A stretch of DNA of 41,735 nucleotides from positions 1 through 41,735 of the IMG/VR virus record IMGVR_UViG_3300042923_000189, one strand, 5' to 3'. The stretch comes from a virus. The notes beneath the pieces were generated by a model. The model did not search any database and was not told the DNA's origin. It saw nothing but the letters and a program-made list of their open reading frames with translations. Each line of letters starts with the position of its first letter. Positions within the stretch are counted from its first letter, which is position 1. The translations under genes were made by a program, and so were the position numbers. Shown here piece after piece: positions 459-35,161 of this stretch.

Positions 459-643
459 AACGGAGCACAGCATTCCCGGGAAGACGAAGTGAAGGTGAAT
501 TTAAATTGAACTCAGCTAGAGCTTACGGAAACATAGAAAACGATGCTAAGAAAGGTAATAGTAAGATAAATCCCATATTTACGGAACGACCTCATTATGG
601 GATTCCCGAGCCGGTTATCCAACCGACCACTGGCGCCGGGTGA
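455..643 (+). CDS. Hypothetical protein (62 aa)
   Basis: A 62-residue basic, probably poorly structured protein rich in Arg, Lys, Asn, Gly and Pro. It begins at an ATG that overlaps the previous stop (ATGA), with GGAGG in the end of the upstream gene. Its last 29 bases overlap the 3' end of a convergent gene on the other strand. It has no recognisable domain. It is included because of the coupling to the upstream gene and the good ribosome binding site. Confidence 0.55.
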   Translation: MKRSTAFPGRRSEGEFKLNSARAYGNIENDAKKGNSKINPIFTERPHYGIPEPVIQPTTGAG

Positions 644-896
644 CGTCAAAAATAAAAACTATGCTATTCCTGATACCATAAGCATCATAAGCACAATCAA
701 AGGTCATGATGTAGTTTTCCTCTTTCCGCATAAACGAAGAATATATCTTGTAAGTAAATCTCTCACAACGATCATCTACGATGCGGAAGTAATCGACTCT
801 CATTTTACCTTCGGGATTTGTAGTTGTAATGACATCGATCGGGTGCCCTGCAGGATGTTTGATCAGAGGACGGTGGTCGGGTTGTAGGAATGGCAT
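615..896 (-). CDS. Antisense-oriented accessory protein (93 aa)
   Basis: This leftward gene lies inside a rightward operon. Its ATG at 896-894 is preceded on its strand by a TGAGGT ribosome binding site, and a consensus-quality promoter lies about 30 bases further up. The protein opens with a Pro/His-rich stretch (HRPLIKHPAGHP), continues with TNPEGKMR, and has alternating hydrophobic beta-like segments. It resembles a family of about 90-residue proteins in Clostridial phages, but I cannot attach a function. The other strand here is also open (597-887), but that reading is rich in basic and Ser/Ile runs and has no proper ribosome binding site. Independent leftward expression suggests a gene active in the lysogen. 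Confidence 0.65.
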   Translation of the reverse strand: MPFLQPDHRPLIKHPAGHPIDVITTTNPEGKMRVDYFRIVDDRCERFTYKIYSSFMRKEENYIMTFDCAYDAYGIRNSIVFIFDVTRRQWSVG

Positions 897-10416: not shown

Positions 10417-11439
10417 ATGGCTGATAAATCATATTGGGAGAAACGACAGCTCCAGAGATACTTATCCGGAGAACAGAAGGTTGTTGACTACTATAAGGAT
10501 CTCAAGAAATCCTTCGAGCAGGCAAAGCGAGAAATTCACAAGGTTGTCAATGACTTTGTAATGAGGTATGGGGTAGAAAACAACTCTCCATCCTACACAA
10601 CTGCAATGCGTACACTCAATAAGGTTGAGATAGGCGATCTGCAAGCCTTCATAGACAAGGCAAAAGAGAATATGGGTAAATACGATCTTGAGCTCAGTAA
10701 TATGTCCATACGAGCCAGAATAACACGGTATCAGGCACTTGAGAAACAGATCGATGTAATCCTACAGCAACTGTACGGAATTGAATATCAGTATAAAGGC
10801 GAGGAAGTCCTGAAAGACATTTACTCGGATTCATATTATCAGACTTGGTTCGGGATTGATCAATACAAGGGATTTCATCAAGAGTTCGCGCAGGTATCAG
10901 CGAAGACGGTTGAGGAGCTTATCAAGTACCCATTCAACGGCGCAGACTTCTCAACCCGGCTCTGGAAGCAGAAAGCATATACACTACAGTCATTGAGTGA
11001 AAATATAACTACAATGTTGATACAGGGTAGAAACCCGAGAGTATTGGCGCCTGCATTCGCTAAGAAGTTTGCATCTTCAGAATTCGAAGCTTACCGGTTG
11101 TTACATACAGAAATGTCATTCATGGCTGAGCAAGGCTCACAGAGGGCATATAAGGAGGATGATGTCGAGAAGTATCAATGGTTAGCTACTCTGGATATGC
11201 TGACCTGTGAAGAGTGTCAAGGGATGGATAACAAGGTGTTCGATACTGGCAAGGGTATCGTCGGAGTATCAATGACACCAAAGCATCCATTATGCAGATG
11301 CACAACTATTCCTTACTACGAGGAAGACGAAGAAGAGACCAGGGTTGCAAGGGATGCCAAAGGCAAGACCTATAAGCTGCCAGCGAATGTTTCATATCCG
11401 GAATGGCTTAAGATGTATATACATGGACAGGAGGGGTAA
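10417..11439 (+). CDS. Minor head protein, SPP1 gp7/MuF family
   Basis: The 340-residue protein begins MADKSYWEKRQLQRYLSGEQ, a typical opening of SPP1-gp7/MuF-like proteins. A helical N-terminal half precedes the conserved MuF C-terminal domain with HTEMSF, then LATLDMLTCEECQGMDNKVF and PKHPLCRCTTIPYY (residues ~225-310). Cys pairs in CEEC and CRC probably bind zinc. A few copies are packaged inside the head near the portal. ATG lies at 10417 after ATGAGG. The gene is usually directly after the portal, so the fibre gene has been inserted between them. It ends one base before the peptidase start. Confidence 0.9.
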   Translation: MADKSYWEKRQLQRYLSGEQKVVDYYKDLKKSFEQAKREIHKVVNDFVMRYGVENNSPSYTTAMRTLNKVEIGDLQAFIDKAKENMGKYDLELSNMSIRARITRYQALEKQIDVILQQLYGIEYQYKGEEVLKDIYSDSYYQTWFGIDQYKGFHQEFAQVSAKTVEELIKYPFNGADFSTRLWKQKAYTLQSLSENITTMLIQGRNPRVLAPAFAKKFASSEFEAYRLLHTEMSFMAEQGSQRAYKEDDVEKYQWLATLDMLTCEECQGMDNKVFDTGKGIVGVSMTPKHPLCRCTTIPYYEEDEEETRVARDAKGKTYKLPANVSYPEWLKMYIHGQEG

Positions 11440-11440
11440 A

Positions 11441-11797
11441 GTGAAAGTTAATATTTTAGGTACTGAGTATGAGATAAATATGTATAAATACCATGACAAG
11501 CCGATATTTGAAAAGCGAGAAATTGACGGTTATTGTGATGGAACTCTGAAAGAAATTGCATATGTAGACTTATGTACTTATCCGGGATACGAGGATGTGT
11601 CTTCCGAGAAACATAGATTAATTGAGAGATTGACATTAAGACATGAGATTGTACATGCGTTTCTTAATGAAAGCGGTCTACAAGAAAGTTCTGGAAGTCC
11701 TGCGACCGGATGGGCGACGAATGAGGAAATGGTGGACTGGATAGCACTGCAGTTTCCCAAGATGCTTAAGGCTTTTCAAGAGGCTGATTGTTTATAG
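11441..11797 (+). CDS. HEXXH zinc metallopeptidase-like protein (118 aa)
   Basis: GTG 11441 follows GGAGGGG, a better start than upstream ATGs in the same frame. Residues around 65-75 read LRHEIVHAFLNESG, a clear HEXXH zinc-peptidase motif, with a candidate third ligand in NEEMVDW about 25 residues later (gluzincin-like). The rest is short, so it is a minimal catalytic domain with an alpha/beta N terminus. It sits between the minor head protein and the scaffold. It could process scaffold or head proteins, or be an injected enzyme; this is inference, as I see no described role. The HExxH spacing is intact. Confidence 0.7.
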   Translation: MKVNILGTEYEINMYKYHDKPIFEKREIDGYCDGTLKEIAYVDLCTYPGYEDVSSEKHRLIERLTLRHEIVHAFLNESGLQESSGSPATGWATNEEMVDWIALQFPKMLKAFQEADCL

Positions 11798-27538: not shown

Positions 27539-28417
27539 ATGTTAGGTATTGACAAGGGAACTACATATACCAAGACCGATCAGAAGATTTGCATTAAGAG
27601 CACCATAAGAGAGTACCAGGAGAGCGACATCTCACTGCAGAACGATAAGCTGATTCTCGAGATGGAGAACAAGAAATGGGTGATTGGCGAGAAAGGGAAT
27701 TATTCAACTGATCTAATGAAATCTCAGCACTATAATACAAAAGCTCTCGTACTAACAGCTATAGCACAAAGTACTACGGATGAATGTATTATCACTGACA
27801 TTGTGACAGGGTTGCCGATCGCACTGTATTCCGGCCAGAAACAAATAATGAAGAATTTATTCCAAGATACAAATAATGAGATCCGGATCAACGGAATTAG
27901 AAAAAGGATACGTATAAGAAACGCAGAAGTTTTTCCCGAAGCTGCAGGAGCTTTTTATTCTCAGAACGAGTTTACAGATGCATTAATAATCGACGTAGGT
28001 GGTCTTAGTATTGACACGGCGCAGTTTAAGGGCGGCAAACTGATTAAGTACTCAACTTATTCGATGGGTATGATGAAGCTGTTTTCAAAAATTGCAAACA
28101 AAGTTAACTCGGAACATGATTTATCTCTTACAGAGTGGGATATTGAAGATCTGCTAAAAGACGGATTATTTATATACGGAAAGCAAGTCGATATCGGAGC
28201 TGAAAGGATAATCATTGAGCACGCAAAGGAAATAATCGAAAGGCTTTCTTTAGAATACGATCTAAAAAGTCTAAAGAATATACTTATCACCGGAGGCCCG
28301 GCTGATTGGATAAGTAAGTATCTAGCCAAATATATTCCACAACTTCGAACAATGAAAAACAATCAATATAGCAATGCAATAGGATACAGCAATATCGGGA
28401 GGGTGATATTCGGGTGA
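27539..28417 (+). CDS. parM: ParM-like actin-family segregation ATPase
   Basis: The 292-residue protein has the actin-fold nucleotide motifs: phosphate-1 loop (GIDKGTTYTK, residues 3-12), phosphate-2 loop (IIDVGGLSID, ~150) and adenosine motif (ILITGGPADW, ~250). An AAGGAGGG ribosome binding site precedes ATG 27539. It polymerises into filaments that push apart DNA copies held by ParR. The length is in the range of ParM and Alp proteins. It overlaps the ParR-like gene by four bases, giving a compact parMR operon behind the candidate centromere. Confidence 0.88.
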   Translation: MLGIDKGTTYTKTDQKICIKSTIREYQESDISLQNDKLILEMENKKWVIGEKGNYSTDLMKSQHYNTKALVLTAIAQSTTDECIITDIVTGLPIALYSGQKQIMKNLFQDTNNEIRINGIRKRIRIRNAEVFPEAAGAFYSQNEFTDALIIDVGGLSIDTAQFKGGKLIKYSTYSMGMMKLFSKIANKVNSEHDLSLTEWDIEDLLKDGLFIYGKQVDIGAERIIIEHAKEIIERLSLEYDLKSLKNILITGGPADWISKYLAKYIPQLRTMKNNQYSNAIGYSNIGRVIFG

Positions 28418-28665
28418 GGAAAACAAAGGGATTCTCATATGATCCAGAAATAGATAAGGATGTGATAAATCATATCGATAGCCAGCAGAATGGAAGCCAA
28501 TATGTTTGGGGACTTGTGAGAGCAGATATGTCAGAGAACAGCATTGAGAACATTGTAAACAGACAGATAAAAAAATACCTGCAGGATCACGAAATCACTG
28601 CAGGCTCTAAAGAAAAGGATATTAAACTTGATGCAAACGAGATTAAAAACATACTCAATCTATAG
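28414..28665 (+). CDS. parR: ParR-like centromere-binding protein (83 aa)
   Basis: A GTG start overlaps the ParM stop (GTGA), with GGGAGGGTGAT upstream. The N-terminal half (KTKGFSYDPEIDKDVINHID, then QNGSQYVWGLVRADM) has the ribbon-helix-helix-like pattern of ParR-type proteins: one short strand, then two helices, with a Lys/Asp-rich C terminus that would contact ParM. Position directly after ParM supports this. A 230-base AT-rich gap without an apparent gene follows. Confidence 0.75.
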   Translation: MRKTKGFSYDPEIDKDVINHIDSQQNGSQYVWGLVRADMSENSIENIVNRQIKKYLQDHEITAGSKEKDIKLDANEIKNILNL

Positions 28666-28894
28666 GGTGCACTTACTCCATGGAACGTCATTTCAATCAA
28701 CTGACCTTCGTCAATTTCATTACATGACTAGTGTATGCAAGGACCGTTTGTACAAATACCTATTTTGCTCGTACTAATTCTTAAATTATTATTAAATTCC
28801 ATATATAACAAATCGAGTTATTTTTAAAAATATGACTATTGAAACCGTTGCCGCTAACATTGTATCACCTCTAATCTGAAAGGATGTATGTATT

Positions 28895-29110
28895 ATGAAT
28901 TTTGATGAAATTGGTAAAATGGTTTTTAATGCTTTGATTAATGCAGGCTATTGGGTAATCGCTATCATTACACTTAAAGAAGTTCTTTCTTGTGGATCCA
29001 GAAGAGATATTGAAGGCATTATTAAATCGATCTTAGGCGGAGTAGTAAGCTATGCTGCATTGTATTTCATTACCGATATGCTCGACAAAGTAAAGGATGT
29101 GATGGATTGA
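28895..29110 (+). CDS. Two-pass small membrane protein, VirB2/TrbC-like (71 aa)
   Basis: ATG 28895 follows AAAGGATG. The protein has two hydrophobic segments (residues ~17-33, GYWVIAIITLKEV, and ~44-60, ILGGVVSYAALYFITDM) separated by a short charged loop (CGSRRDIEG). Size and topology match pilin-like VirB2/TrbC or Maff2-type proteins found in Firmicutes conjugative elements. It is the first gene of a tightly overlapping trio with another small membrane protein and a VirB4-like ATPase. The 230 bases upstream contain a possible TTGAAA -35, but no convincing -10. Confidence 0.6.
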   Translation: MNFDEIGKMVFNALINAGYWVIAIITLKEVLSCGSRRDIEGIIKSILGGVVSYAALYFITDMLDKVKDVMD

Positions 29111-29370
29111 TGTATTTAAAAACTGAATTAATTGGTGGTTGGACCGGTGATCAGCTCGATCAGCTCAAAGATAGTATTGCAAGCGGTATTTATGAAGGGT
29201 TTGTAAAATGCATGGATGTAATTTGTAACTTTGTTTTTTGGGGATCCAAGATTGGTATATTGTGCTGCGCAATAGTTTTTATAGCAAGCAAAGATCAGAA
29301 GGCTGTATCAACGGCGGTTAAGCTTGCTCTTATATATCTTATAACTGCGGTGGTGAGTGGCCAATTATGA
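29110..29370 (+). CDS. Second small membrane protein of the T4SS-like trio (86 aa)
   Basis: ATG 29110 overlaps the upstream TGA (TGATG). There are two hydrophobic segments (residues ~44-61, FVFWGSKIGILCCAIVF, and ~68-82, VKLALIYLITAVVSG). An amphipathic N-terminal part precedes them (WTGDQLDQLKDSIASGIYEG), as in small accessory channel proteins of Gram-positive conjugation systems. The stop overlaps the start of the ATPase gene in an ATGA. Family identity is not certain. Confidence 0.6.
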   Translation: MYLKTELIGGWTGDQLDQLKDSIASGIYEGFVKCMDVICNFVFWGSKIGILCCAIVFIASKDQKAVSTAVKLALIYLITAVVSGQL

Positions 29371-31637
29371 AAAAGCTTTCAATGCCGGTATCTAAATATT
29401 TTGAATTTAAGCAGCCCAAATACATATATCTGAAGCTTACGCCTTCCACGTCAATAAGAAATTACAGCACTGATAACCTTCTTAAGTTAATTGCATCCCT
29501 GTATAGAAGCTTCAGCCAACAGATAAGCATAATAAATAAAAAGATGTTTTTTGAATGCTCCGCAAAGGTTTCGTTCTATATCTACATGGAAAAGCATCGT
29601 GTTGAATTCTTCTTTATTGTGCCCGAGGTACACTATTCATTGTTTAAAGATAAATTAACAGATACATGGAGCAATAAGATAACAATAAGTATTGTGTCCG
29701 AAATACCTTTGTTTAGTCATGGATGTGTAAAATATTATATGGATTATAAAAAAGAGGATCCTATGAGTCTTGTGACAGATAAAAGGAACAATGCATTGCT
29801 TGCGTCTGAGCTTGGCACTCTATACGCAATGGAGGATGGAGACAAAGCAGGTGTGATTTTTAATTTTATTCCGATGGATCAACATAAATGGAAAGCAGAT
29901 TTTGAAAATACTATTAAGAGACTGAAGAATGATATGCCGATAAACAAGAACAAAATCAATTTTTGGGTATTATTATCATGGGCGATAGGGTTGGTAGTCA
30001 AAGCAATGGAGATAGGGCTTGAAAGCTTGAGCATAGGAGAATCCGATGTTAAGAGCGTAGGCGAATTTACAATAACTGATGATACCAGAAATAAAAAGAG
30101 CAGCGTAGTCGTGGGAACGCAGATCATTTGCCTTAGCGAGAGCGATAATAAACTACGCGAATATAATACTGCCAAATCACTGTGTCATAGCTTTCAATGC
30201 CTTACATCAAACGATAATGAGCTGATCGGGAGAAGATTGCGCACCAAAGAATTAAGCATTCTAAGCACAACAATCAGCAAGGCTGCAGTACTGAAGATGT
30301 CACCGAGAGAAACACAGCACTTCATATCGCTTCCCGGCCTGGATCTCCTAGAGGAGCACAAGATTATTGACCGTCTGGAAGTATTGGAGCATGAGGTACC
30401 GGGAGAATTAAAGACCGGCATTATAAGTCTAGGCGATACCACTTACAAAGGAGATCCATACAGGGCCTACCTTCCGACCACGAAGAATGAGCGATGTCTC
30501 ACAGTGGTTCTTATAGGTCCAACCAGATCAGGAAAAACCACCGCAATCAGCAACTTTTCAAACGATGCCAGGAATGGCGGTGAGTGTACAATTATTTTCG
30601 ATTTTTGCGGTAACTGCGAGCTCTCTGATAGTGTCAATAAGGATGTTGGCAATGTACTCAATATTGATTGCAGCGACCTTAAGCAACTTCAGGGCATGGG
30701 TTACAACGAAGCTAATCACCACGAAACCGATCCGATAAAACAATATGAAAACGCAAAGATCCAGGCATCGAACTTACTTGCGCTTATCGATGCAGTAAAC
30801 AGTGAAGACAGGGACCTTAAAGCGAAGATGAATAAGTACTTAAGCGCTGCAGCTCTCCTGGTATTCATAAGTAACGGAAAGATAAAGGATGTGTTTGGAG
30901 TCCTTCAGGATCACCGGTTAAGATGGGATTATATCAATGCTGTTCCAAGCAATCAAATGGAGTATATGGCTGAATACATAGATACTATGAAGGAGATTGA
31001 CGATACTAAGCAAGGCGAGGTTATTGGAACTAAATATAACACTGCTATTGGTGGTATTATGGATCGTGTTGGGCAGTTAAAGCAAAACACTTACATGGAG
31101 CTGATGCTTAAAAAGGACTGCAAGAATAACTTTAACTTAATCGATGAGATGCAGAACAATCAGATCATTTGTTTCCGGATGCCGGAGCACATGTTTAGTA
31201 CGCAGGCTGAGAAAGATGCTTATTGCACTTATTGGATGACGAAGATATGGCTTGCTCTTAAATTCCGGAAGGCCTATATTCCGGATGCTCAGCATATTAA
31301 AGTTAATGTTATCGTTGATGAGCTTTCCCAAGTGCCGCACTGTCAAGAGTTTATCCGGAGTAAGCTCAGTCAGATGGCGAAGTTTAACTGTAAAATGATT
31401 ATTAGTTGCCATTATCTGAATCAGATCAAGATTATCCGGGAAGAATTAAAGAGTGCAAACAGTAGTTACATGCTAATATCTGGATGCGATAAGGAGAATT
31501 ACAAGGAGTTGAAGGAGGAGCTGGCGCCTTACTCGGTCGATGATCTCCTGAGACTTAAGAAGTATCACAGCCTTAATCTGATTAAGCTTCCTGACGGATA
31601 TGTTACGTTTGTCACCAAGTTACCAAAACCGCTATAA
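29367..31637 (+). CDS. VirB4/HerA-like conjugation ATPase
   Basis: The 756-residue protein has an N-terminal ~340-residue beta/alpha domain (including YIYLKLTPSTSIRNYS and FFFIVPEVHYSLF) as seen in Gram-positive VirB4-like proteins. MSPRETQHFISLPG then precedes a RecA-like ATPase with Walker A about residue 384 (GPTRSGKTT) and Walker B about residue 650 (VIVDELSQV), and a MIISCHYLNQ segment after it. Such proteins drive conjugative secretion or DNA translocation. It is coupled to two small membrane genes and lies after parMR. No relaxase is in the window. A HerA-like defence function is a possible alternative. Confidence 0.75.
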   Translation: MKKLSMPVSKYFEFKQPKYIYLKLTPSTSIRNYSTDNLLKLIASLYRSFSQQISIINKKMFFECSAKVSFYIYMEKHRVEFFFIVPEVHYSLFKDKLTDTWSNKITISIVSEIPLFSHGCVKYYMDYKKEDPMSLVTDKRNNALLASELGTLYAMEDGDKAGVIFNFIPMDQHKWKADFENTIKRLKNDMPINKNKINFWVLLSWAIGLVVKAMEIGLESLSIGESDVKSVGEFTITDDTRNKKSSVVVGTQIICLSESDNKLREYNTAKSLCHSFQCLTSNDNELIGRRLRTKELSILSTTISKAAVLKMSPRETQHFISLPGLDLLEEHKIIDRLEVLEHEVPGELKTGIISLGDTTYKGDPYRAYLPTTKNERCLTVVLIGPTRSGKTTAISNFSNDARNGGECTIIFDFCGNCELSDSVNKDVGNVLNIDCSDLKQLQGMGYNEANHHETDPIKQYENAKIQASNLLALIDAVNSEDRDLKAKMNKYLSAAALLVFISNGKIKDVFGVLQDHRLRWDYINAVPSNQMEYMAEYIDTMKEIDDTKQGEVIGTKYNTAIGGIMDRVGQLKQNTYMELMLKKDCKNNFNLIDEMQNNQIICFRMPEHMFSTQAEKDAYCTYWMTKIWLALKFRKAYIPDAQHIKVNVIVDELSQVPHCQEFIRSKLSQMAKFNCKMIISCHYLNQIKIIREELKSANSSYMLISGCDKENYKELKEELAPYSVDDLLRLKKYHSLNLIKLPDGYVTFVTKLPKPL

Positions 31638-32062: not shown

Positions 32063-32356
32063 TTAACTCTTACCCCGAAGGCTTATAACATAATTTATAT
32101 ATTTTTCGACATCTAGTCGCTCGCTGTCCGTTAACCGTGGTATACTTTTTTCACCGGTTAACCACGATATAGATATTCCTAAATATTCACACAGTTTTAC
32201 TGCATCCGATAATGGTAAGTCACATTTACCGCCTTCAAACCTTGAATATTTGGCTTGACTAATACCAATGGATTCACTGACATCGCTTTGCTTTTTTGAT
32301 AAGCTTAATCTGACATTATAGGCACGTAGACCAACCTCATAAGCATCATATTTCAT
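32063..32356 (-). CDS. XRE-family HTH regulator (97 aa)
   Basis: I start at ATG 32356, with AGGGG upstream on its strand. The protein has a Cro/C1 HTH of the usual length (LSKKQSDVSESIGISQAKYSRFEGGKC, residues ~18-45; KLCEYLGISISWLTGEK follows). The C-terminal tail (DSERLDVEKYINYVISLR) is short, with no peptidase domain. It is encoded leftward, flanked by the hexamer array on its downstream side and by AT-rich repeats upstream. It probably regulates itself and perhaps the cargo genes. Confidence 0.85.
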   Translation of the reverse strand: MKYDAYEVGLRAYNVRLSLSKKQSDVSESIGISQAKYSRFEGGKCDLPLSDAVKLCEYLGISISWLTGEKSIPRLTDSERLDVEKYINYVISLRGKS

Positions 32357-32379
32357 CTTATGCACCCCTGCCAAATATT

Positions 32380-32606: not shown

Positions 32607-32635
32607 TTGAAAACGAACAGGCGTTCTGATATAAT
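32607..32635 (+). promoter_or_regulatory. Consensus promoter with LexA (SOS) box in the spacer
   Basis: -35 TTGAAA (32607-32612) and -10 TATAAT (32630-32635) are 17 bp apart. The spacer contains CGAACAGGCGTTCT (32614-32627), which matches the Gram-positive LexA box CGAAC-RNRY-GTTYC at all but the last base. Transcription would start about 32642 and lead into the 65-aa gene at 32686. Confidence 0.8.
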
Positions 32636-32685
32636 GACCTTAATTTCACCGCTGAGAACTATTGTTATTTAAAGGGGGCAATATA

Positions 32686-32883
32686 TTGAACAAAGCAATT
32701 GAAGAGCTTATTATTAAACGCTGCGAAGTGGCGAAGATGGAAGATGCCGAGTACTTGGAATGCGAAAGAGGAAAACGCGAACCGGAAGAGGTGCAGTCTC
32801 TGGCAGAAATAGCATGCTACAAAAAAGGATTGAGGGATGCAAAGAATTTATACATGTTGTTAGAATGTAGTGAAAAAATGTAG
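32686..32883 (+). CDS. SOS-controlled small protein beside attP (65 aa)
   Basis: A TTG start at 32686 follows an AAGGGGGC ribosome binding site; an ATG at 32662 lies upstream without spacing for a site. The product (after Met: NKAIEELIIKRCEVAKMEDA) is mostly helical, highly charged, with three Cys, and no DNA-binding motif I recognise. It is read from a strong promoter with a LexA box in the spacer and ends about 130 bases before the att core. An SOS-induced antirepressor or excisionase is the most attractive idea, because the phage repressor here lacks a cleavable domain. This role is inference. Confidence 0.65.
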   Translation: MNKAIEELIIKRCEVAKMEDAEYLECERGKREPEEVQSLAEIACYKKGLRDAKNLYMLLECSEKM

Positions 32884-32943
32884 TAAAATACGTGAAATAT
32901 TAGCATATATTGAACGGTATGAATAAATATGTTTAATATAAAG

Positions 32944-33011: not shown

Positions 33012-33068
33012 CTAGACTAAGGATCTAGTTCCAGCAATGGAGTAGGGGTTCAAGTCCCCTCGACTGCA
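33012..33068 (+). other. attP core: 3' part of a tRNA-Leu(AAG) gene
   Basis: The stretch folds as an anticodon arm (CTAGA, loop CTAAGGA with anticodon AAG, TCTAG), a long variable arm (TCCA, GCAA loop, TGGA) as in tRNA-Leu, a T-arm (AGGGG, TTCAAGT, CCCCT), and acceptor strand CGACTGC with discriminator A. The matching 5' acceptor GCAGTCG and D-arm are not found upstream. The integrase gene lies 87 bases to the right. This is how an attP that targets a tRNA gene looks. Confidence 0.8.
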
Positions 33069-33154
33069 GTAAGTAAAATCAAGGGTTCCAGTGTTTTCGC
33101 AAGAAGATGTTGGAGCTTCTTTTTTTGCCGTGTAGTAAAAAATGTAGTGGGCAA

Positions 33155-34387
33155 CTATATTGCTTTAAACATTTTTTTACGTTCCTCTCGGGTGAGAGTC
33201 TTTTCTTCTGTGGTGGTAGTCTTCTCAGGTTTGACATTTGGCTTGATGGAATTATTAATTTTATTGGCTGCTTCTTCATCCATGTCTTTTAATACATGCT
33301 GATAAACTTCTCTCAGTGTAGACACTGTAGAATGCCCAAGACGCTCCGCAGCAACTTTGTCCGATATATTTCCTCTCAACATCACAACTGCATTGTAATG
33401 CCTCAGGTCGTGTAAACGAATATGCGGAAGATTGTACTTGTCCAACAAATAATTAAATCTCTGAGAAAGAGATTTCGGTTTCCACCGGGTGACAACATTG
33501 GTATCTGAACCCGGCTTTCCACAAGATACATAATGTCTTTGTAATGTTTCGATGACATATTCAGGGGCTGATATGGTTCTCTTGCTTGTTTCGTTCTTGG
33601 GATCCTTCTCGATATTACTTGTAAAGTTTACCATGGTCTGTTCTATGGTGATAGTTTTTGCCTTGAAGTCTACATTTTCCCATCGCAATCCGAGAATTTC
33701 GCCACGCCTTAATCCTGATCCGGCCCCCAGGATGATCGGAACTTCTTCATCTTTTCCATGAACAAAATCAAGTAATTTAAGAAACTGGTCTTTGTTATAT
33801 ACAACAGGTCTATATTTTACCATAGGAGACAACTCTACTCCATCGGTCGGGTTAGTCCTGATTTTGCCATTAATCATCGCATAGTGTAGTGCAGCTTTAA
33901 GAAATTTATTAAGCTTAATAACAGTGTTGATGCTGAGCTTCGGCATTGTTTGGGTGACAATCTTGTCGCCATGCTTAACTTTATGCTCCCTCTCATTAGA
34001 TAGTTTGAAATTATAAAACGTATCCAGCGTTATGGTTTTTATATCTTTGAGTTTCGTATTACCAAAATAAGGCTCAAAATGCACATCAATATACATTTTG
34101 AATAGTTCTGCGGTAGTCTTTTCCCACTTTGCCTTGTCTGGGCGTTTTGATTTTGGGTCCCACATATCATATCCGGCTCTTATCCGGTGATATGATTTCA
34201 AAAACGCAATCAATGTATCTTTGTTCGGAGGAGTATACTGCCCGGTTCGAATCTCAAATAAAATCTCACCTGCTTTTTCAATAACTTCTTTTTCTGACCA
34301 TCCGTAGATGAGTTTTGGTCTACTCGCTCCAATATCAACAGGATATACCCATCTACCATCTGAATTTCTCTGATAAGGTTTTCCCAT
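33155..34387 (-). CDS. int: Tyrosine integrase
   Basis: The start at 34387 follows AGGAGGTAATTGT on its strand (an upstream Met at 34411 lacks a ribosome binding site). The 410-residue protein has an N-terminal Arm-DNA-binding domain (AP2-like, MGKPYQRNSDGRWVYPVDIG), a core-binding SAM-like domain (~70-190), and a catalytic domain with GLRRGEILGLRW (first Arg), LHDLRH (HxxR), GHSTVSTLREVYQHV (His and the Tyr nucleophile). It mediates integration and excision at the tRNA-derived att site. It starts just after the stop of the repressor gene, so the two are one leftward operon. Confidence 0.95.
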   Translation of the reverse strand: MGKPYQRNSDGRWVYPVDIGASRPKLIYGWSEKEVIEKAGEILFEIRTGQYTPPNKDTLIAFLKSYHRIRAGYDMWDPKSKRPDKAKWEKTTAELFKMYIDVHFEPYFGNTKLKDIKTITLDTFYNFKLSNEREHKVKHGDKIVTQTMPKLSINTVIKLNKFLKAALHYAMINGKIRTNPTDGVELSPMVKYRPVVYNKDQFLKLLDFVHGKDEEVPIILGAGSGLRRGEILGLRWENVDFKAKTITIEQTMVNFTSNIEKDPKNETSKRTISAPEYVIETLQRHYVSCGKPGSDTNVVTRWKPKSLSQRFNYLLDKYNLPHIRLHDLRHYNAVVMLRGNISDKVAAERLGHSTVSTLREVYQHVLKDMDEEAANKINNSIKPNVKPEKTTTTEEKTLTREERKKMFKAI

Positions 34388-34391
34388 ACAA

Positions 34392-34709
34392 TTACCTCCT
34401 ATATAAATCAATCATCTGGTCAAGCTTCTCGGGAGATACGTCTTCCTTGATAGCTTTATCGATCACGCTTATATATTCTTTTTTGTTAGCAAACTGTATA
34501 GTGCTAAAATCTCCGTTGCCCGCAAGCCAATCCAGCGTAACGCCAAAATAATCAGCTAAGCTTATCAATGCCGATAATCCAGGCTCAGACTTCCCATGCT
34601 CATATCTCCATATTAATGATTTTGTGCTGTCAACTGCTTCAGCGAGTGTTTCATATGATAGCTCTTTCCTTGTTCTTAACATATTCAGCCTTTTCGCAAA
34701 CTCATTCAT
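34392..34709 (-). CDS. CI-like repressor (105 aa), HTH only
   Basis: I start at ATG 34709; GAGG lies ten bases upstream on its strand. The HTH is clear (RKELSYETLAEAVDSTKSLIWRYEHGKSEPGLSALISLADYF, residues ~13-52), and the C terminus is a short helical tail (DVSPEKLDQMIDLYRR) without an S24/LexA peptidase. It should keep the lysogenic state by binding the operators near 34825 and 35146. With no cleavable domain, it cannot respond to RecA directly. Its stop lies four bases from the integrase start. Confidence 0.85.
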   Translation of the reverse strand: MNEFAKRLNMLRTRKELSYETLAEAVDSTKSLIWRYEHGKSEPGLSALISLADYFGVTLDWLAGNGDFSTIQFANKKEYISVIDKAIKEDVSPEKLDQMIDLYRR

Positions 34710-34824: not shown

Positions 34825-34840
34825 GTTCTAAATATAGAAC
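34825..34840 (+). promoter_or_regulatory. Operator copy 1
   Basis: GTTCTAAATATAGAAC, with 6-bp arms GTTCTA/TAGAAC about a 4-bp centre. It sits directly downstream of the rightward -10. An identical 16-bp copy is at 35146. Confidence 0.8.
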
Positions 34841-34882
34841 GAAACAAACCCTAGTAACATAGTGAAAGGAGGACGAAAAACA

Positions 34883-35128
34883 ATGCAAAAATCGACACAA
34901 AAAAAAGACAAAAAGTTACATAATCTACGCAAGTTTCGTGACGAATTTGATATAAGACAGGAAGATTTTGCAGTACTTTTGGGGTATAAGAAGTCTAATT
35001 ACTGTCAAAAGGAGTTGGGTAAAATCGAATTTACGCTTTCTGAGATTATAAAAATTCAGAAAGCTATAAACGACAGGCGTGAAAAAATCGGTCTACCACC
35101 TGTGACGATGGATGAAATTTTCAGGTAA
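34883..35128 (+). CDS. Cro-like XRE-family HTH protein (81 aa)
   Basis: ATG 34883 follows AGGAGG at ten bases. A basic N-terminal stretch (QKSTQKKDKKLHNLRK) precedes an HTH (EFDIRQEDFAVLLGYKKSNYCQKELGKIEFTLSEIIKIQKAI). It is the first rightward gene, under a promoter with a repressor operator, the place of a Cro-type protein. The C terminus is short. It would oppose the leftward repressor gene during lytic growth or act as an early regulator. The DNA-binding part is rather Lys-rich. Confidence 0.82.
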   Translation: MQKSTQKKDKKLHNLRKFRDEFDIRQEDFAVLLGYKKSNYCQKELGKIEFTLSEIIKIQKAINDRREKIGLPPVTMDEIFR

Positions 35129-35145: not shown

Positions 35146-35161
35146 GTTCTAAATATAGAAC
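35146..35161 (+). promoter_or_regulatory. Operator copy 2
   Basis: The same 16-bp GTTCTAAATATAGAAC as at 34825, located 46 bases before the next gene. It lies between the Cro-like gene and the early operon, with no consensus -35 around it, so it may block readthrough or a weak promoter. Confidence 0.8.

Follow-up and report, generated by a model that had tools for sequence, protein, structure and literature searches.

How does a temperate phage whose repressor carries no peptidase learn that its host's DNA is damaged? In many Bacillota phages the repressor is short and has no peptidase domain, and the means by which they sense damage is often unclear. The question is raised by one locus of the IMG/VR record IMGVR_UViG_3300042923_000189, which we analyzed whole (41,735 bp, linear, terminal repeats absent; hereafter the window) and whose terminase, by similarity, suggests a phage of Bacillota. 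Its CI-like repressor (34392–34709, minus strand) has 105 amino acids and an HTH domain only; the best NCBIfam match, of RstR type, lies below the cut-off. An earlier note had described this repressor as lacking an S24 domain, and S24 is in fact absent from the entire record. Moreover, neither S24 nor M78 peptidases were found in any of ten records, namely the window and nine related ones, some of them fragments. Because both peptidases are absent from these records, neither of the two classical ways by which DNA damage removes a repressor was found, and the note's further contention that damage must be sensed otherwise is well supported. About 1.5 kb from the repressor gene, past attP and the integrase gene and hence outside the immunity region, a 65-amino-acid ORF (32686–32883, plus strand) lies under a LexA-type box. 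Related phages retain the same switch, and through this gene the dormant phage probably senses host DNA damage and wakes.

The promoter of the ORF (32607–32635, plus strand) comprises TTGAAA (32607–32612), a 17-bp spacer, an extended −10 TG and TATAAT (32630–32635). It carries 11 of 12 consensus letters (5/6 in the −35 element and 6/6 in the −10 element, plus the extended TG), so the arrangement that the earlier note had called perfect is in place, although the word does not hold literally. Within the spacer lies the operator CGAACAGGCGTTCT (32614–32627, plus strand), a GAACN4GTTC dyad overlapping the promoter, as in Gram-positive LexA-regulated promoters; PMC4234289 gives GAACN4GTTC for B. 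subtilis and GAACN4GTTC or GTTT for C. difficile. The site is the sole match without mismatch to CGAACNNNNGTTCK (CGAACN4GTTCK) across the 41,735 bp. Markov sequences gave an expectation per window of 0.06 boxes and of 0.035 occurrences of a promoter plus RAACN4GTTC, compared with two promoter-plus-box arrangements observed, and the exact-match count and this expectation rule out a chance match as the source of the box. The case rests on the exact site, because the pattern at two or fewer mismatches was not enriched (27 in the window versus a shuffle mean of 39). The LexA-type box in the promoter before the 65-amino-acid ORF is real and confirmed. Just 3′ of the promoter, a leader motif, AATTTCACCGCT (32642–32653, plus strand), is common to the relatives L001, L024, L027 and L046; the motif conserved there reads AATTTCACYGCT, and a further phage, L040, has it shortened to AATTTCACT. 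A second HTH gene (32063–32374, minus strand) is divergent from the promoter.

Another LexA-type promoter of the window, TTGAAA-17-TATAAT with CAAACAAATGTTCT (931–944), was located at 926–954 on the minus strand. The ORF after it (615–896, minus strand) belongs to no family in Pfam, NCBIfam or PHROG; by eye, it resembles small proteins that L025, L042 and L045 encode behind an identical box.

The 65-amino-acid ORF opens with TTG behind the Shine-Dalgarno sequence GGGGG (32674–32678), both of which are also kept in L001 and L024; an in-frame TTG further upstream would extend it to 73 amino acids. Comparison with L001 shows changes at 29 of 37 synonymous sites (pS 0.78) and at just 13 of 158 non-synonymous ones (pN 0.08). 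The ORF is under strong purifying selection, which supports its coding status, and this codon selection rules out a non-coding ORF.

We looked for relatives by three routes. A protein search identified L001 and its near copy L002; exact search for the tRNA 3′ end at attP identified L018, L019 and L020 besides the L001 contig; and a four-sequence alignment identified L027 and re-found four others. Thus five distinct phages (L001, L018, L019, L020 and L027) were found by protein or att sequence, independently of the box. Searches with the promoter and box added L022, L024 and L046, the second of which was later recovered by protein too, and the counts of phages leave out the near-duplicates L002, L026, L028–L030 and L037. 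A profile of six close members, run against 4,244 ORFs, recovered L046 at 9e-7, L022 at 2e-6 and L018 at 0.0016, so the homology of L018 to the core six appears marginal. Every homologue, in seven other phages, lies behind a promoter of this kind. In the five box-independent phages, a promoter with a box lies upstream of the homologue in 5/5, as RAACN4GTTC in four and as GAACAAACATTC in L018; the boxes read CAAACACGTGTTCT (L001), CGAACTAGTGTTCT (L019), CAAACGTATGTTCT (L020), AGAACGTATGTTCT (L027) and CGAACAAACATTCG (L018). The homologues in L022, L024 and L046 are likewise preceded by a box. Across relatives the half-sites hold and the central four bases vary; the left half-site is AAAC in L001, L020 and L022, and the right one bears one substitution in L018. 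Among 364 promoter-like sites in 11 loci, four of which had been chosen by the box, the dyad occurred in 11: one is the window's second site and ten precede small ORFs, including the unrelated ORF of L040 and that of the near copy L002.

One relative bears on the host. L002 is a 3,323-bp contig of a Pelosinus metagenome-assembled genome (MAG), almost identical in sequence to the viral contig L001, and is probably a mis-binned phage contig. Pelosinus was rejected as host, as the phage is found only on this one 3.3-kb contig of the MAG and the tRNA-Leu target pattern occurred in none of the other 299 genomes of the MAG's class that were searched, beyond the MAG's phage contig.

Who binds the box? 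Around the full-size lexA loci in the family of the Pelosinus MAG, boxes of this kind occur in 8/8 cases, for example CAAACATTTGTTCG; the CAAAC half-site of L001 and L020 is therefore compatible with LexA. We also searched viral contigs for the string RAACN4GTTCTGATATAAT and obtained 41 stretches, which by reading comprised six of the small-ORF family, L040, four with LexA-domain genes, two more of an 'IDVI..KW' type, one with an M78 peptidase, three with a 72-amino-acid HTH protein (one of them scanned by Pfam) and 19 outside all groups. Five of the 41 share an identical ORF start after the site and look like chance occurrences in coding DNA; not all 41 stretches are LexA sites. An early gene with a LexA_DNA_bind domain follows the string in L025, L039, L048 and L054 (E from 1e-12 to 2e-20), and in L061 (11551–13625) the LexA-type promoter is followed by an M78 (ImmA/IrrE-like) peptidase and then a serine integrase. 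Since the same string precedes LexA-domain genes and a peptidase elsewhere, the operator's assignment to LexA is supported. The 72-amino-acid HTH genes, which resemble one another, come from L035, L056 and L057, three further phages in which this LexA-type promoter directly precedes them.

The box might instead serve the phage's own repressor, or the neighboring HTH protein, as operator. Putative CI/Cro operators, two copies of GTTCTAAATATAGAAC (34825–34840 and 35146–35161) around a Cro-like HTH gene (34862–35128, plus strand), do use the same half-site letters, GTTC/GAAC. However, their geometry is reversed relative to the LexA box and their spacing is different, the CI regions of different phages have different palindromes although the LexA-type box stays, and the same box stands before LexA-domain genes in unrelated phages. 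A role as CI operator was rejected because of the differing palindromes, and we regard a non-LexA operator in general as very improbable. The earlier note's match to the Gram-positive LexA site is thus well supported, the site being kept in all seven relatives that have a homologue (in one with a substitution). CGAACAGGCGTTCT is very likely bound by the LexA of the host.

What, then, does the protein do? All nine members of the family are acidic (pI 4.4–5.3), and two AlphaFold models, one from each of two subgroups, agree on three helices (residues 2–19, 21–28 and 33–64, pLDDT 92.5, in one; 4–19, 23–37 and 41–69, pLDDT 91.5, in the other). The family has no credible match in Pfam, NCBIfam or PHROG. 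A tblastn search of 50,697 phage records with the window's ORF gave no match at E 1, and no credible relatives were found in phages and plasmids. Fold searches returned nothing usable (best E 5.5 in the PDB and 1.6 among viral structures), nor did VIA-align, whose best Z of 4.8 was to a helical bundle; neither by structure nor by sequence did the protein match any antirepressor. In the open-access literature we found no Bacillota phage for which such a family is described, which is not proof of absence.

The neighborhood of the gene invites another interpretation. Its last codons overlap putative integrase arm-type repeats, AATGTAGTGAAA / AATGTAGTAAAA (32864–32888, plus strand). A candidate attP core, read from the sequence, follows at about 33012–33068 (plus strand) and spans the anticodon arm to the 3′ end of a tRNA-Leu(AAG); the same 24-base tRNA 3′ end occurs in L018–L021, and ARAGORN found no complete tRNA. 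Downstream of the core are a terminator-like hairpin with a T run (33083–33118, plus strand), a putative arm-type repeat flanking attP on its opposite side (33131–33145, plus strand) and a tyrosine integrase gene (33155–34411, minus strand), convergent with the 65-amino-acid ORF. Two side observations concern other parts of the record. Between the lysis genes and attP (27539–31637), a ParM/ALP-type actin gene with a small partner precedes small proteins and a 756-amino-acid TrwB-like ATPase, resembling a plasmid-type partition and transfer module inside a temperate phage; L019 and L022 also seem to carry a ParM-like gene. A protein with the motif HEIVH, encoded among the head genes (11345–11797), has no Pfam match.

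Like an Xis gene, the small gene adjoins attP and int, and it could encode a LexA-controlled recombination directionality factor that binds the integrase and turns it to excision upon SOS. That it ends in the arm-type repeats and faces int is consistent with this, as is the lack of a Tn916-Xis or HTH_17 match in the window, although the Tn916-Xis negative is weak because the control matched nowhere. Xis proteins are basic, however, and the family is not one of small basic winged-helix proteins: it is acidic, three-helical and without a match to any HTH or excisionase family. The only hit to a directionality factor was an insignificant one (L018 to PHROG_6474, E 0.17), and in one phage (L022/G305) a separate HTH_17 ORF of excisionase type lies near int. 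An acidic three-helix fold without a family match makes a classical DNA-binding excisionase less likely and suggests that the partner is a protein.

A comparison of L027 with L040 bears on the same alternative. The two share an 83-bp island (85.5% identity) over promoter and leader, further upstream stretches and one 55-bp stretch, whereas the small ORF, the integrase (tyrosine versus serine) and the repressor all differ; the small ORF of L040 is an unrelated 59-amino-acid acidic protein. This suggests that the promoter is kept while the effector changes with the lysogeny module. A change of small ORF with integrase type under a kept promoter is what a directionality factor might show, but the repressor differs as well, and physical linkage alone might explain the co-swapping because the window's ORF overlaps the attP arm sites. 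Identity of the ORF tracks that of the integrase (r = 0.80) and of the repressor (r = 0.85) about equally, and on this measure the repressor is no better a candidate partner than the integrase. Overall, we consider a directionality factor unlikely. A broader and tentative idea, which we would sooner doubt than adopt, is that of a modular SOS cassette in Bacillota phages, in which LexA-type promoter and leader are fixed next to the integration module, damage sensing stays constant and repressor-specific effectors are swapped by lysogeny module: the acidic three-helix family, the 59-amino-acid acidic protein with a serine integrase, or an ImmA-type protease with a serine integrase after it.

The position also fits an SOS-controlled accessory gene unrelated to induction and kept for host benefit or toxicity, as integration would place the gene at one end of the prophage; in the L024 record the ORF is terminal and int lies close to the opposite end, an arrangement also seen in L022. 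Such a role is improbable given the constant place beside the integrase and the strong coding selection, and under it, prophages that lack S24 and M78 would have no known means of sensing damage.

We return to an antirepressor under LexA control, working like Gifsy GfoA or 186 Tum. In the lysogen, LexA bound between the −35 and −10 elements would keep the gene silent. We infer from the promoter that DNA damage induces it: RecA-driven self-cleavage of LexA would free the strong extended −10 promoter, and the 65-amino-acid protein would bind the short non-cleavable CI-like repressor, probably via its C-terminal helical part, and so release the lytic genes. We give the antirepressor function a probability of roughly 0.5, and the same to the whole explanation, in which a host-LexA operator is coupled to an SOS-made antirepressor directed against the CI-like repressor. 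Among the roles proposed in the earlier note (antirepressor, excisionase or replication switch), the first fits best, the classical form of the second is disfavored, and nothing was found that points to the third. If right, this reading offers a concrete, testable answer to how short-repressor Bacillota phages sense damage, through a LexA-controlled effector family that is unnamed in the libraries searched and sits where damage response, repressor and integration meet.

How does the locus compare with known systems? It shares the operator GAACN4GTTC with the LexA-controlled genes of C. difficile and B. subtilis, as PMC4234289 presents them; unlike those, the gene is a phage's, its operator lies inside the promoter spacer, and a leader motif after the operator is shared by six phages. 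GIL01 gp7 of Bacillus thuringiensis is likewise a small phage protein tied to host LexA; according to PMC9700832, it binds LexA and enhances its DNA binding, whereas in the window LexA presumably regulates the gene. This precedent and the LexA-type control of a small phage protein would suit a LexA or RecA modulator that feeds back on host SOS or co-resident prophages, but the missing match in the phage records and the linkage to attP and integrase, unexpected for such a protein, make this a remote prospect.

The antirepressor reading finds its closest parallel in Gifsy, where, according to PMC3121763, a short non-cleaved repressor is paired with a LexA-controlled small antirepressor that is encoded outside the immunity region and has a non-canonical start codon. 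Like Gifsy GfoA/GftA and phage 186 Tum (Salmonella, E. coli), the window combines a LexA-controlled small gene outside the immunity region with a short repressor without an autocleavage domain. Unlike them, it has a Gram-positive-type LexA box, a gene at attP facing the integrase and an acidic three-helix family; with the window's ORF as query, tblastn of the phage records and searches of Pfam, NCBIfam and PHROG brought up no credible relation to GfoA, GftA, Tum or AntC. In ImmR/ImmA and MpaR (ICEBs1, Listeria), according to PMC6872733, a separate factor also inactivates a repressor that has no protease of its own. Unlike those systems, the window and the nine related records lack an M78 peptidase, and the peptidase version stands after the same promoter string in L061.
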